Assembly (NCBI RefSeq): GCF_017094505.1
Contig: NZ_CP064787.1
Location: 1,736,001-1,800,000 of the forward strand
Origin: Halapricum desulfuricans
Lineage (GTDB): Archaea; Halobacteriota; Halobacteria; Halobacteriales; Haloarculaceae
Direction of reading: 5' to 3'
Length of the DNA stretch: 64,000 bases
Of this stretch, positions 32,418 to 50,458 are shown piece by piece; the stretch's first letter is position 1; each line of letters starts with the position of its first letter. The translations under genes and the position numbers were made by a program. The notes beneath the pieces were generated by a model. It worked only from the letters and a program-made list of their open reading frames with translations, was not told the origin of the DNA and ran no database searches.

Positions 32418-32817
32418 TCGGGACTGTTCCAGCCACGGAGATCCCGGACAGTTTCACTTTCACTCCGGGCGGCGGACGTTCATACCGCTGGACGCGCTAA
32501 GACAGCACACGGGGCCCGGATCACTGTCACACGCTCCATGGCCCCGCCCCTTTGTCCCGCGGCTGTCCGCGAGGAGTCACTATTCGGCCAATATCGCACG
32601 ATCCGCAGCACTCAAAATAGCCGGGGTACTCGATCAGGGTGGCGGCTGGTCGTTTCGATCTACCCGCCATGGTACACTCGGTCCTCACGGACCGTTTTCG
32701 CGGGACAGTGCGACCGATGATGGCCGCCGTGACAATTTGCCGGCGGGACCGATGCAGTTGTGCGGGTTGATGCGGAAGGGACTTACAACAGTCCGTATAA
32801 CTTCAGGGAGACGAGTC
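32418..32817 (+). promoter_or_regulatory. dinB upstream region with 18-bp element
   Basis: This 400-bp region has no convincing gene. At 32451-32468 it holds GTTTCACTTTCACTCCGG, followed after 8 bp by CGTTCAT (32477-32483). The same element with the same spacing precedes the RNR gene at 45694. If CGTTCAT acts as a weak TATA element, the dinB transcript would have a leader of about 300 nt. Confidence 0.55.
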
Positions 32818-34086
32818 ATGCCCGAGCGTGCGCGTCTGCCCGGGGTCGATCGCCGTCCCGAGCAGGTAGTCTGTCACGTGGACATGGACTGTTTTTACGC
32901 CGCCTGCGAGCGGTTGCGCGAGCCCCAGCTACGGGGCGAGCCAGTCGTCGTCGGGATGGGATACGAGGACGGCGACGACCACGGGGCCGTCGCCACGGCG
33001 AGTTACGAGGCGCGCGCGTTCGGTGTCGAGAGCGCGATGGCGATCTCCGAGGCCCTGGAGCGACTCCCGCGCCGGGCGGAGACCGACGGCGACGCGGACG
33101 GACAGGACGCGAGCGAGCGCGACTCATCGGAGGAAACCGGCTACTACCGGCCCGTCGACATGGACTACTACGAGTCCGTCAGCGAGGACGTGCGGGCGAT
33201 CCTCCGGGACAGCGCGGACGTCGTCCGGGCGGTCAGCATCGACGAGGCCTATCTCGACGTGACTGACCGCACCGACTGGGACGGCGTCGAGGGGTTCGCT
33301 AGCGACCTGAAAGCCCGGATCGAATCAGCAGTCGGCGTCGTCGCGAGCGTCGGCGTCGCGCCGACGATGAGCGCCGCGAAGATCGCAAGCGACGCCGACA
33401 AACCGGACGGACTGGTCGTCGTCGAACCCGGGGCAGTTCGGGAGTTTCTCGCGCCGATGGACGTCGAGGCCGTCCACAACGTCGGCCCCGTCACCGCCCG
33501 CGAACTCCGCGAGACCGGCATCGAGACCGCGGGCGATCTGGCCGAGTCCGACCCCGACCGACTGGCAGATCGCTTCGGCGAACGCGGCCGGGAGATCTAC
33601 CGGTTCGCCCGCGGTGAGGACGCCCGCGAGGTCACGCCACGGGACGACCCGAAGAGCTTCTCGCGGGAGTCGGCATTTTCCGAGGCCGTCGCGGACACCG
33701 ATCCGGTCCGCGAGCGCGTGCGGACGCTCGCGACGGCAGTGGCGGGGCGTGCCCGCCGGGAGAGCGCGCTCTACCAGACGATCGGAATCAAGGTCGTGAC
33801 ACCGCCGTACGACGTGCACACGCGCGCCCGGTCGCTGTCCGGTCCCGTCGACGATCCCGAACTGGTCGAGGCGATCGCGACGGACCTGCTCGCGGAGTTC
33901 GAGGACGCTCGCGTCCGCAAGGTCGGCGTTCGCGTCTCGAAACTGTCCTTTACCGACCGCGAACAGGCCAGTCTCGACGGGTTCGACGACAGCGACGAGC
34001 GAGTCGGACAGAAGCGAGGCGATCGGTCCCACCACCCTCCGGACCACACGCGAGACGATTGCCAGCTGACCCTTTCGGACTTCTAA
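32818..34086 (+). CDS. dinB: DNA polymerase IV (Y-family)
   Basis: Protein of 422 residues. The palm starts VCHVDMDCFYAACERLREPQLRG, with the first catalytic Asp in DMD; the second acidic pair is in RAVSIDEAYLDVTDR. The finger motif has TASYEARAFGVESAM. Helix-hairpin-helix segments (NVGPVTARELRETGIETAGDLAE) and a little-finger domain follow, and the C-terminus CQLTLSDF resembles a PCNA-binding peptide. It performs translesion synthesis. An insert near residues 85-105 is acidic, as in haloarchaeal homologues. The gene ends overlap citrate synthase by 4 nt. Confidence 0.95.
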   Translation: MPERARLPGVDRRPEQVVCHVDMDCFYAACERLREPQLRGEPVVVGMGYEDGDDHGAVATASYEARAFGVESAMAISEALERLPRRAETDGDADGQDASERDSSEETGYYRPVDMDYYESVSEDVRAILRDSADVVRAVSIDEAYLDVTDRTDWDGVEGFASDLKARIESAVGVVASVGVAPTMSAAKIASDADKPDGLVVVEPGAVREFLAPMDVEAVHNVGPVTARELRETGIETAGDLAESDPDRLADRFGERGREIYRFARGEDAREVTPRDDPKSFSRESAFSEAVADTDPVRERVRTLATAVAGRARRESALYQTIGIKVVTPPYDVHTRARSLSGPVDDPELVEAIATDLLAEFEDARVRKVGVRVSKLSFTDREQASLDGFDDSDERVGQKRGDRSHHPPDHTRDDCQLTLSDF

Positions 34087-42364: not shown

Positions 42365-45726
<3,362 letters not shown>

Positions 45727-45955
45727 TAACGTTCAGTGCTTTCGTTGTCGCGTACGCTGCACACCCGCGGGGCGCGTACTCGACCGAGAAGAACACGCAC
45801 AGCGACTGGTGTCTCGCGGGAAGCCGAACAGCGAGGCGACGGGTTCATTAGGAACCCACAAGTAACGAACTTCCGCCACAGATGATTCGTACACGGACTC
45901 ATATCACGACTCGTATCGACCGACGACGGGACGATACCGACCGGAGGGCCGACGC

Positions 45956-48900
45956 GTGAGCCAGCAGGACCTCTCTGCGGACGAGATCTCGCTGCCGATC
46001 AAGCGCACGACCGGCGACAGCCTCGAGGAGCGACTCACCTCGAACGCCTATCACAACATCCTGCCGGCGCGGTATCTCCGCCAGGACGCCGACGGGGAAC
46101 TCGTCGAATCCCAGGAGGACCTCTTCGAACGTGTCGCCAAAAACGTCGCGCTGGCGGAGGCGGTCTTCGAGGCCCGCCAGGAAGACGTCGAGATCACGGT
46201 CACGCCAGAGCAGTTGAAGCCGTCTCACCCCCGACGCGACGAACTCGCCGAGGAAGTCTTCGGCAGGGGGACGACCGTCGACGACGACGCCGAGACTACG
46301 CTGACACAGTACAACGTCAACAAGTTCGCGTACGAGACGATCGTTCCGGAGTTGCCCGCTGACGTCCGCGAGCACGTCGAGGAGACCGCCGCGGAATACC
46401 GGCAACTCATGGAGGACCTCTCGTTCATCCCGAACTCGCCGACGCTCATGAACGCGGGCGACGAACTCCAGCAACTCTCCGCCTGTTTCGTCGACTCCCC
46501 CGAAGACGATATGGAAGACATCCACGAAACCGTCAAAGAAGCAGCAGAAGTCTTCCAGTGCCTCACTGAGGACACGCAGGTCTACGTAGAGGACAAGGGC
46601 GTCGTCTCCGTAGCTGATGTCGAGCCCGGCGACCGGATCGTCCAGCGTGACGGGGACGACCACGATGTCCAGAACGTCGAAGAAACCCACGCATACGATA
46701 ACTCGCCGGTCCGTCGAATCGAGACGGCGGCCGGAATCGAACTGACAGGGACTCCGAACCACGAGCTACTCGTTGACGGCTCGTGGACGCGGATCGATCA
46801 GATCGAGGCCGGAGACACCCTCTCGCTGCGGCTCGGCTGGATCGACAGCGAGGACGCGACACCGGAACTCACGACCGTCGCTGGCGGGGCACAGTGGTCC
46901 GAAAACCGAACGGTCTCGAACGACGACATCCTCGAACTCCACGCGGACGGACTCAGCGATTACGAGATCGCGGACCGACTCGACAGCTCGCCCTCGACGA
47001 TCCAGCGCCGTCGCTCGCTCGAACTCGGGCTTGATCCCAACGGGAGCGGCGGCCGGTCCGGCGGTGACGTGAGCTTCGACGAGACCGAGTTCGAGACGCT
47101 CTACGACGACGGTCACTCGGACGGTGAGATCGCTCGGGAACTGGGTGTCTCGACCCGCAGTGTCGCCCGGTTCCGCGAGACCCAATCGCTTGAGGCGAAC
47201 GGAGACGCTGTCAAGACCGTCACGCAGCCGACCGAGTTCACGCCCGAGCTCGCTGACCTCGTCGGCATGTGGGTCGGCGACGGCTCGAAACACGAAGACG
47301 GAATTCGATTCCACCTCAGACGGGAGGAAACGCTTGAGCACGCTGACCGACTCTCCCGGGACCTCTTCGATGTCGGGCTGGACTGGCGGTGGGACGACGG
47401 TTGCTACGAGGCTGTCTTGCACAGCCACGAGATCAAGCGCTGGTGGCTCGCCAATTTCGGTGACGCCAAGCCGGACGCGACCGCCGCTTCGGTTCCGAGC
47501 GAAGTCTGGGAGGCCGACCGGGAGACGATCGGCGCGTTCCTTCGAGGGCTGTTCTCGACCGACGGAGGGCTACAGAAAGACGTCTACCCGCGACTGTGGA
47601 GTGCCTCGGAGGATCTGGTTGAGGACATCCAGCAGTTGTTGCTCGGTCTCGGCGTGCCAGCGATCCAGTGGGAGTACGACACCGACGAGCGCGACTACTA
47701 CAACGTCGGTCCGACCGGCGAGCGAGGTCTCGAACGGTTCATCGAGTCGATCGGGTTTGTCGACGACCGCCAGGAGACGATGGCAGAGGCACTCTCCGCG
47801 ATCGACTCCGAAGGACCGAGCGTCGGCACACGCGAGGGATCGACCTGGCATGTGCCGGTCGAGGCCGTCGAAGATGCCGGAACGGACACCGTTTACGACG
47901 TTACCGTCGCCGATGACCACGAATACGTTGCGAGTTCAGTCGTCTCACACAACAGCGGGGGCGGCATGGGATACGCCTTCTGGCGACTGCGGCCGTACGG
48001 CGATCCCGTCGGATCGACCGGGGGAGTCGCCTCGGGGCCGATCACGTTCATGCGGACGTTCGATCAGGCTTGCGAGACTATCGCCCAGGGCGGGGCCCGG
48101 CGCGGGGCACAGATGGGTGTCATGCGCGTTTCACACCCGGACGTCATCCAGTTCATCCACGCCAAGAACAAGGACGTCTCGCTGGCACACACCCTGCGCC
48201 TCAACGATCCCGACGACTTCACGCACAACTCCTTCGCGGACGCGCTGGAGGAGGCCCGCGAGTTGATCGACGAGGACGGTCGCGTCCCCGAACACCTCCG
48301 AAACGCCGTCGAGGGTCACCTCTCGAATTTCAACATCTCCGTCGGGATCACCGACGACTTCATGGAGGCGCTGCAGAACGGCGAGGAGTTCACGTTCACG
48401 AACCCGCGGACGGGTGAGCCGCACGTCACCACGCCGGAGACCAAAGAGCTGTACGACATGTTCGGCCTCGGCGAGTACGTCGAGGTCGGCGAGGAACTGT
48501 CGGTGCCGGCCGAGGAGATCTGGGAACGGATCGTCGAAGGTGCCCACGAGAACGGCGAACCCGGCGTCATCTATCTCGAACGCGCGAACAAGGAACATTC
48601 CTTTGATATAGAAGAAAACCCGGAGCACAGGATCCTTGCAACAAATCCTTGTGGCGAGCAGCCGCTGGAGGAGTACGAGGCCTGTAACCTCGGACACATC
48701 AATCTCTCGACGCTGGCGGCGGAAGACGCGCCCGACTGGCGAGTCTGGTCAGACCGTCACGCCGGCGACTACGAGACGACCGGGGCGGCCGTCGAAGCGT
48801 TCCTCGAGGAGGCCATCGACTGGGAGGAGTTCGACTACCGGATCGAAACGGGGACGCGTTTCCTGGAAGACGTCGTCACGATGTCCGACTTCCCGGTCGA

Positions 48901-50458
48901 GGAGATCGAGCAGAAGGTACGGGAACTGCGCAAGGTCGGACTGGGTATCATGGGCCTGGCGCAGCTGTACGTCCAGCTCGGGATGAAATACGGCGAGGAC
49001 GTCTCCGACGAGGTCGCCCGCCAACTGATGTCCCACATCAACCACCACTCCAAGTGGACCAGCCACGAACTCGCCGAGGAGCGCGGCTCCTTCGAGGAGT
49101 GGGAGAAATCGAAGTACGCGAACCCGACCGAATACCGCGAGTGGTTCGAACACTACACCGGTCTGGACGCCGACGAGTGGGCCGACGGCTTCCCGATCCG
49201 CAACCACAACACTACGACGATCGCCCCCACGGGGACGACTAGCATGGTGGGTAATACCACGGGCGGCTGTGAGCCCATCTATAACGTCGCCTACTACAAG
49301 AACGTCTCCGACGACGTGCAGGGCGACGAGATGCTCGTCGAGTTCGACGATTACTTCCTGCGCGTTCTGGAAGAAAACGACATCGACGTCGAGGCTGTCA
49401 AGAAAGAGGCCCAGGAGCAGATGGCCGAAAACGAGTTCGACGGTATCGACGGGCTCTCGACGGTACCGGACGCCATCGGTGAGCTGTTCGTCACGACCGG
49501 CGACCTATCGCCAAACCAGCACGCGTCGATCCAGTGCGCCCTGCAGGACGGGGTGGACTCGGCGATCAGCAAGACCGTCAACGCGCCGAACGATTCGACC
49601 GTCGAGGACGCCAAGGAGGCCTTCGAGTACATCTACGAGCACGGCGGCAAGGGCGTCACCTACTACCGGGACGGAACCCGATCGAAGCAGGTGCTGACGA
49701 CCCGCGCCCAGAACGCCGAGTTCGCCGACATGGACCGCGAGGAGATTGTCGCCCAGATCGAGGAGGTCTTCGACGGGATCGAGGGTTTCCTCGAGAGCGA
49801 GGAAGTCAAGGCTGCTCTCGAAGAGTCCGTCGAGGACTTGCTCGGCGTGGCCGACGGCGAGACGGCCGAGTACGCAAAAAAGCGCCCGCGACCGGACGTC
49901 CTCCACGGCGTCACACAGCGGATCGACACCGGATACGGGAAGCTGTACGTCAACATCAACGAGGACGAGGACGGTCGGCCGTTCGAACTGTTCGCCAACA
50001 TCGGCAACTCCGGCGGGTTCACCGCGTCGTTCACCGAGGCGCTGGCAAAGACCATCTCGACGGCGCTGCGCAGCGGCGTCGACCCCGAGGAGATCGCCGA
50101 CGAGATGCAGGGCATTCGCTCGCCGAAAGTCGCCTGGGACAAGGGCGAACAGATCCAGTCGATCCCCGACGCCATCGGCACGGCGATGCGCCGATATCTG
50201 GACAACGACATCGAGCGAGCCTATCCCCAGCAGCAGAACCTGACCGAACTCGAAGACGAGGTCGAGGGCCCCCAAGCGGACGCCGGGTCCCGGTCGACTG
50301 ACGGCGGTGCGGCTGGCGCGGGCGAGGCGACCACTGACGACCAACAGGAACTCATCGCGAACGGCGAGAGCCCCGAGTGTCCGGAGTGTGGCTCGATGTC
50401 GCTGTATTACTCGGAGGGTTGCAAGACCTGCGAGAACTGCGGCTGGAGTGAGTGCTGA
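45956..50458 (+). CDS. nrdJ: B12-dependent (class II) ribonucleotide reductase with intein
   Basis: Precursor of 1500 residues from a GTG start; removing the 465-residue intein leaves about 1035. Extein landmarks: NSPTLMNAG and LQQLSACFVD (first redox Cys), SGGGMGYAFWRLRPYGD (substrate loop, directly after the intein), TNPCGEQPLEEYEACNLGHINL (radical Cys region), and RNHNTTTIAPTGTTSMVGN. The C-terminus carries a zinc ribbon, CPECGSMSLYYSEGCKTCENCGWSEC, with the terminal Cys pair needed for reduction. It makes deoxyribonucleotides using adenosylcobalamin and needs no oxygen. The promoter region shares an element with dinB. The large gene has no partner subunit, as expected for class II. Confidence 0.95.
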   Translation: MSQQDLSADEISLPIKRTTGDSLEERLTSNAYHNILPARYLRQDADGELVESQEDLFERVAKNVALAEAVFEARQEDVEITVTPEQLKPSHPRRDELAEEVFGRGTTVDDDAETTLTQYNVNKFAYETIVPELPADVREHVEETAAEYRQLMEDLSFIPNSPTLMNAGDELQQLSACFVDSPEDDMEDIHETVKEAAEVFQCLTEDTQVYVEDKGVVSVADVEPGDRIVQRDGDDHDVQNVEETHAYDNSPVRRIETAAGIELTGTPNHELLVDGSWTRIDQIEAGDTLSLRLGWIDSEDATPELTTVAGGAQWSENRTVSNDDILELHADGLSDYEIADRLDSSPSTIQRRRSLELGLDPNGSGGRSGGDVSFDETEFETLYDDGHSDGEIARELGVSTRSVARFRETQSLEANGDAVKTVTQPTEFTPELADLVGMWVGDGSKHEDGIRFHLRREETLEHADRLSRDLFDVGLDWRWDDGCYEAVLHSHEIKRWWLANFGDAKPDATAASVPSEVWEADRETIGAFLRGLFSTDGGLQKDVYPRLWSASEDLVEDIQQLLLGLGVPAIQWEYDTDERDYYNVGPTGERGLERFIESIGFVDDRQETMAEALSAIDSEGPSVGTREGSTWHVPVEAVEDAGTDTVYDVTVADDHEYVASSVVSHNSGGGMGYAFWRLRPYGDPVGSTGGVASGPITFMRTFDQACETIAQGGARRGAQMGVMRVSHPDVIQFIHAKNKDVSLAHTLRLNDPDDFTHNSFADALEEARELIDEDGRVPEHLRNAVEGHLSNFNISVGITDDFMEALQNGEEFTFTNPRTGEPHVTTPETKELYDMFGLGEYVEVGEELSVPAEEIWERIVEGAHENGEPGVIYLERANKEHSFDIEENPEHRILATNPCGEQPLEEYEACNLGHINLSTLAAEDAPDWRVWSDRHAGDYETTGAAVEAFLEEAIDWEEFDYRIETGTRFLEDVVTMSDFPVEEIEQKVRELRKVGLGIMGLAQLYVQLGMKYGEDVSDEVARQLMSHINHHSKWTSHELAEERGSFEEWEKSKYANPTEYREWFEHYTGLDADEWADGFPIRNHNTTTIAPTGTTSMVGNTTGGCEPIYNVAYYKNVSDDVQGDEMLVEFDDYFLRVLEENDIDVEAVKKEAQEQMAENEFDGIDGLSTVPDAIGELFVTTGDLSPNQHASIQCALQDGVDSAISKTVNAPNDSTVEDAKEAFEYIYEHGGKGVTYYRDGTRSKQVLTTRAQNAEFADMDREEIVAQIEEVFDGIEGFLESEEVKAALEESVEDLLGVADGETAEYAKKRPRPDVLHGVTQRIDTGYGKLYVNINEDEDGRPFELFANIGNSGGFTASFTEALAKTISTALRSGVDPEEIADEMQGIRSPKVAWDKGEQIQSIPDAIGTAMRRYLDNDIERAYPQQQNLTELEDEVEGPQADAGSRSTDGGAAGAGEATTDDQQELIANGESPECPECGSMSLYYSEGCKTCENCGWSEC
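46559..47953 (+). other. Intein in RNR with LAGLIDADG endonuclease and two HTH inserts
   Basis: The intein is 465 residues long. It starts at Cys202 (CLTEDTQVYV, block A) and contains block B TPNHELLVDG and the terminal pair His-Asn (VASSVVSHN) before the +1 Ser of the extein. Homing endonuclease blocks LVGMWVGDG and FLRGLFSTDGG are present, each with its Asp. Between block B and the endonuclease lie two helix-turn-helix-like segments: ILELHADGLSDYEIADRL...STIQRRR (about 46918-47034) and FETLYDDGHSDGEIAREL...RSVARFR (about 47092-47196). All splicing residues look intact. The insertion is next to the active-site loop, a known RNR site type. Confidence 0.92.

Follow-up and report, generated by a model that had tools for sequence, protein, structure and literature searches.

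Two copies of one 18-bp element, GTTTCACTTTCACTCCGG, occur in the window analysed here, a stretch of 64,000 nucleotides from Halapricum desulfuricans (contig NZ_CP064787.1, positions 1,736,001 to 1,800,000), one on the map before dinB and one before nrdJ. The locus raises the question whether a single activator couples translesion synthesis to dNTP supply, as was proposed in the initial annotation. The copies are identical, lie on the forward strand and are each followed after exactly 8 bp (GCGGCGGA and TCTACTCA) by a TATA-like box (Table 1). Chance, considered very unlikely from the outset, is indeed no explanation: local shuffles of the window yielded an expectation of 0.04 matches with up to 3 mismatches per shuffle and in 0 of 100 cases two matches, and a scan of the host genome gave 10 sites against 0 for the reversed pattern. 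With up to 3 mismatches to the 18-mer, the window contains nothing beyond the two exact copies.

Table 1. Features of the window (window positions) and sites of the element elsewhere in the host genome
Feature	Position	Strand	Remarks
18-bp element, tandem TTTCAC (A-G-TTTC / A-C-TTTC) plus TCCGG	32451-32468	+	sequence match
TATA-like box CGTTCAT	32477-32483	+	sequence; 8 bp 3' of element
Putative non-coding RNA gene	32507-32698	+	start inferred about 25 nt past TATA box; end at terminator
5' hairpin CGGGGCC-c-GGA-...GUCACACGC-UCC-au-GGCCCCG	32510-32546	+	sequence CGGGGCCCGGATCACTGTCACACGCTCCATGGCCCCG; loop GUCACACGC at 32526-32534
Terminator-like hairpin CGGTCCTCACGGACCGTTTT	32679-32698	+	about 130 nt past 5' hairpin
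dinB (Y-family polymerase)	32818-34086	+	Pfam IMS/IMS_C; own TTACAA TATA-like sequence near 32783
18-bp element of nrdJ	45694-45711	+	sequence match; kept upstream of nrdJ in 24/29 other genomes
TATA-like box CGTTTAT	45720-45726	+	sequence
nrdJ (class II ribonucleotide reductase with intein)	45956-50458	+	Pfam PF02867, PF12637, PF14890, PF14528
Host site before nrdJ	window gene start 45956		
Host site before radA	about 41 bp 5' of radA ATG		TTTCACTTTCAG
Host site before rpa			
Host site before mre11-rad50			
Host site before orc/cdc6 paralogue	G000:C1:929422 (L016 4423-5424 onward)		perfect 12-mer; CRISPR-looking repeat array adjoins
Host site before gene of 48-aa Zn-ribbon-like protein			upstream of pspA
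Host site before DUF5790 gene			triple repeat TTTCACTTTCACTTTC
Host site before threonine deaminase gene ilvA			

An 11-bp motif, TTTCACTTTCA, was found upstream of the UV-B-induced genes radA1, top6B, vng17 and vng280 in Halobacterium sp. NRC-1 and was proposed as a regulator site (Boubriak et al. 2008, PMC2556686); nrdJ was UV-induced in the same strain but is not listed with the motif (PMC2556686). Both window elements contain this motif and, as described for it, lie directly upstream of a TATA-like box. The distance from the end of the element to the start codon is 244 bp for nrdJ and 349 bp for dinB, thus not of the radA1 type (about 50 bp), a spacing which is found at host radA, mre11 and orc.

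In the host genome of 2.94 Mb, 10 sites have at most 3 mismatches to the element, and the core TTTCACTTTC has 12 matches, one of which (1492791) lies inside a coding region; these counts are from pattern searches, not from a full weight-matrix scan. The sites lie mostly just upstream of TATA boxes and many precede replication and repair genes. Scatter into coding regions, which would have spoken against a regulon, is limited to the single core match; sites before genes unrelated to repair do occur, and the regulon is not purely a repair regulon, with ilvA, the pspA-linked gene and genes for tiny proteins also among the targets. Two host sites are without a gene immediately downstream, and the window site at 32451 is one of them.

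Two further observations concern the host genome. A 16/18 copy of the element is located just past the radA stop codon (G000:C1:144220-144237, + strand, L014), oriented antisense into radA and without a clear TATA box, so that radA is flanked by element sites on both sides. Downstream of the site CTTTCACTTTCACCCCGG (G000:C1:14720-15016, - strand, L013; L332 in congener G069) lies a strongly structured region (255 nt, about -99 kcal/mol) with a conservation of 97.5%, no recognised gene and no Rfam match; a 77%-identical copy is present near G000:C1:1735348-1735599 (L032 13348-13599), and in G069 the region is split by an insertion of about 1.4 kb.

Among the matches listed from a collection of 84,980 genomes, of which haloarchaea form a small fraction, the exact 17-mer occurs in at least 120 stretches; title or G+C content marks about 86 of these as haloarchaeal. 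The families downstream of the listed matches are two kinds of very small proteins (15 and about 20 loci), ilvA, rpa, nrdJ, radA and mre11, together with an ATP-dependent helicase of 819 aa, the Orc protein encoded by orc6, and top6B, which was identified from its N-terminus. The distance from the 17-mer to the TATA box that follows it is 9-14 bp in most haloarchaeal matches. Of 145 Halobacteria genomes, 142 contain the 12-mer; this figure is weak alone, since triple repeats contaminate the reversed control. Proteins of 50-80 aa with the pattern VxVSxx...GGRTFLV belong to the commonest haloarchaeal targets (L071, L090, L112, L120, L141, L062, L100 and others), and an NCBIfam search with two members of this family gave no match. 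The 17-mer locus L091 of Halosimplex carries three successive CACTTTCACTCCG/CACTTTCACCCCG boxes at a spacing of about 45 bp, with a TATA-like sequence after each.

The element could be nothing but a favourable extended BRE/TATA context, or a chance product, read by no dedicated regulator, as it mostly adjoins TATA and haloarchaeal promoters are compositionally biased. This is very improbable, considering that only about ten sites exist per genome, concentrated on replication and repair genes, that in one and the same set of genomes nrdJ and orc6 have kept the element upstream and dinB and orcX have not, and that genes with the motif are UV-induced (PMC2556686). The proposed shared regulator of replication and repair genes is supported by the targets in the host and across the class (nrdJ, radA, rpa, mre11-rad50, top6B, helicase and orc6) and by the published TTTCACTTTCA motif, and a shared regulon with nrdJ as a member is very likely.

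The membership of the two window genes was compared in 29 further haloarchaea from across the class, with the 17-mer allowed up to 4 mismatches within 350 bp upstream of the gene (shuffle expectation 0.3-0.7% per sequence; P values treat the genomes as unrelated). The 17-mer was found upstream of nrdJ in 24/29 genomes, of the orc paralogue in 3/29, and of dinB in 0/29. Because of the contrast of 24/29 to 0/29, the nrdJ operator is, by the measure of sequence conservation, ancestral and dinB is generally not a member of the regulon; dinB as a conserved member was accordingly discarded. Of the initial proposal, the half concerning dNTP synthesis is thus strongly supported by conservation, and the half concerning the translesion polymerase is not supported: in addition to the missing dinB sites, two congeners carry the element and an RNA hairpin beside other genes. 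The placement of the element before dinB is correct as a map position, but a terminator-like hairpin and about 120 bp more lie between it and the dinB ATG.

The intein of nrdJ contains a LAGLIDADG endonuclease and HTH domains, and several other haloarchaeal nrdJ frames are likewise 1400-1900 aa long. The nrdJ leader of about 205 nt (window 45727-45955) is conserved in length, the start codon lying 220-300 nt past the element in most genomes, and a conserved ATGA occurs about 70 nt upstream of the nrdJ start. A leader peptide or an RNA control is possible; an Rfam search for an nrdJ, cobalamin or other known leader gave no match.

Downstream of the element at 32451 the order is 5' hairpin, terminator-like hairpin, TATA-like TTACAA and dinB ATG. 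In congener G069 the element, hairpin and terminator are shared at 86% mean column identity, with the similarity ending just past the terminator. On one flank the unit has relatives of the genes that lie upstream of it in the window, on its other flank purQ, which is encoded on the opposite strand. In congener G165 the element and the hairpin are retained; the 3' part and the adjoining gene differ. In a neighbouring genus (L356, L358) the unit is once more oriented towards purQ, at a distance of about 1 kb. Since the relatives carry the unit beside other genes, with purQ recurring, its position next to dinB is most likely a derived state.

The element at 32451 might nevertheless be the dinB promoter, with one activator inducing dinB and nrdJ together through a long and possibly attenuated leader with read-through of the terminator. 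The identical element on the same strand, dinB as the next gene and a dinB reading frame open back to 32386 fit such a leader, but the intervening terminator-like hairpin and separate TATA-like sequence, the other genes adjoining element and hairpin in G069 and G165, and the 0/29 count at other dinB genes make it unlikely. It is quite likely that the 32451 element is instead the promoter of a separate structured RNA of about 190 nt, with predicted boundaries and with its own terminator before dinB. Rfam at gathering score across the window assigned no family to the RNA at 32510-32698, and at E <=1 the related loci gave only a tRNA and a weak match due to chance, both located elsewhere in these loci.

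The putative RNA would belong to a hairpin family with a variable stem, a constant GUCACACGC loop and a C/U-rich 3' flank, occurring elsewhere as a free-standing RNA or as ilvA leader. The element followed by GTCACACGC at 38-68 bp is present in 29/194 Halobacteria genomes and 14/65 genera (control 0), with the family defined by a sequence pattern instead of a covariance model, since the stems vary so freely that MAFFT did not align them correctly. About half of these loci are 5' leaders of ilvA, and most of the others have no recognised gene immediately downstream on that strand. At least 5 base pairs enclose the loop in 32 of 38 distinct sequences, in stems that are unrelated in sequence: GGGGCC/GGCCCC, UGCAC/GUGCA, GGAGCGU/ACGCUCC, AAGAG/CUCUU and AGGGAGUC/GACUCCCU. 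The folding z-scores have a modest mean of -1.5, and some of the ilvA leaders give poor folds. The constant loop on a freely changing stem suggests a selected hairpin, and it may be speculated that the C-rich loop with the adjacent CUCC could pair with ribosome-binding sites.

The element itself points to a class of regulator. A typical site reads A[C/G]TTTC-ACTTTC-ACTCCGG, with ACTTTC in every exact site and a second ANTTTC in 61/85. Two positions before the 17-mer, 61/85 sites have A, against an average of about 9% A in the flanking columns, and for this reason the site is regarded as two copies of ANTTTC; the extra A is present in fewer than half of the host core sites and is missing at the nrdJ site of the window. 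Orc1-2 of Saccharolobus binds ANTTTC in its own and in other damage promoters (PMC9738581).

Haloarchaea possess a universal single-copy Orc paralogue of about 379 aa, detected in 58/59 genomes at E <=1e-90 and likewise in two genomes that lack an exact 12-mer. In the host it starts with MSDDPEE, and relatives end with AVLDRL. Knockout primers for Halobacterium orc6 encode an MDEDPEE start and an AVLERL-stop end (PMC1906834), and because of this similarity of the termini the paralogue is identified as Orc6. The clade to which Orc6 was assigned extends over the archaea and includes a Sulfolobus member produced in G2, and orc6 can be deleted in Halobacterium NRC-1 (PMC1906834). Among solved (PDB) structures, Orc6 is closest to the initiator types Orc1 / Orc1-1, which speaks against it as the regulator. 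The G2-made Sulfolobus member is taken by us to be Cdc6-2/Orc1-2, and Orc6 is, as the clade suggests, its probable haloarchaeal counterpart.

The orc6 promoter carries the 12-mer (up to 2 mismatches, either strand) in 24/30 haloarchaeal genomes, 13 in forward and 18 in reverse orientation; the reverse copy is usually GTGAAAGTGATG at the start codon and hence partly coding. The exact 17-mer occurs at orc6 in two genera (L072, L107), and a second orc paralogue has the forward 12-mer (up to 2 mismatches) upstream in 1/29 genomes. In G021, the one genome in which a close Orc6 is missing, nrdJ is not preceded by the motif, a weak observation with n=1 on a deep branch. Orthologues of Orc6 in other classes of the phylum show a mean of 3.6 mismatches upstream versus 3.9 in shuffled sequence; most of them are without the tandem motif, which is not clearly enriched, and this counts against Orc6. 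The CRISPR-adjacent orc paralogue (G000:C1:929422) was rejected as regulator, its close relatives being few and their promoters mostly without the site.

Orc6 is put forward, tentatively, as the best candidate for the DNA-binding regulator of the element. Its role as master regulator of the damage response, acting through tandem ANTTTC on a regulon that includes a damage-induced GUCACACGC-loop RNA, both free-standing and as ilvA leader, is more doubtful still. A literature search for a link of Orc6 to this motif in haloarchaea found none, and a search of mostly open-access journals found no later paper naming a regulator of the 2008 motif. That another protein reads the operator, be it a damage-specific TFB, a small haloarchaeal HTH/RHH factor or a small protein of the regulon (Zn-ribbon, DUF5790), comes close to an even chance: haloarchaea have many TFBs and factors, the boxes directly abut the BRE, and the triple repeat at the DUF5790 gene and the frequent targeting of the Zn-ribbon gene are as for an autoregulated repressor. 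Against such proteins stand the universal presence of orc6, the site at its own promoter and its probable ANTTTC-binding relative; we know of no relative binding ANTTTC for the TFB, HTH/RHH, Zn-ribbon or DUF5790 candidates.

The proposed operator is made up of tandem ANTTTC-like hexamers that adjoin BRE/TATA directly on the upstream side; transcription would start about 35-55 bp further on, and a protein bound at this place could help or hinder the recruitment of TBP/TFB. Since 8 bp separate the element from the TATA-like box in the window and 9-14 bp in most other haloarchaeal matches, the protein is predicted to touch the BRE and to recruit or block TFB. Orc6 would control its own gene as well as the regulon, and because orc6 has an inverted copy at its start codon, the regulator may also repress itself. 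Activation after damage would be the simplest reading because of the published induction; the position just upstream of BRE/TATA is compatible with an activator, with a repressor or anti-repressor as alternatives. Taken as a whole, including the RNA and Orc6, the reading of both 18-mers as copies of one haloarchaeal DNA-damage or replication-stress operator is likely.

In the bacterial SOS system (LexA) one operator is likewise common to the recombinase and other repair genes; the haloarchaeal regulon differs by its operator, by having no LexA and by dinB not being a conserved member. With the Orc1-2 DDRE regulon of Sulfolobus/Saccharolobus it has in common the ANTTTC box, an Orc1/Cdc6 paralogue with the box in its own promoter and targets of the damage response (PMC9738581), whereas the haloarchaeal box is tandem and not a single hexamer, the targets are recombination, RNR and RPA genes and not Ups/Ced and ESCRT genes, and Orc6 is a candidate binder only. 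If true, Sulfolobus and haloarchaea, two distant archaeal branches, would both have their damage genes under an Orc1/Cdc6 paralogue. Like haloarchaeal structured 5' leaders and sRNAs, the RNA would be a short hairpin with a promoter of its own or within a 5' leader; it differs from them by the constant GUCACACGC loop on a freely changing stem and by the lack of an Rfam match; the damage regulon of haloarchaea would thereby gain a structured RNA without an Rfam entry. The Halobacterium TTTCACTTTCA motif shares with the element its sequence, the internal repeat, the place just upstream of TATA and the targets radA and top6B. The kind of motif has thus been known since 2008, and the longer consensus ACTTTC-ACTTTC-ACTCCGG, the additional targets (nrdJ, rpa, mre11-rad50, orc6, helicase, ilvA and a putative non-coding RNA), the hairpin family outside Rfam and the specific regulator hypothesis are added here; the class-wide targets together with the site in the orc6 promoter provide one specific and easily tested regulator candidate.
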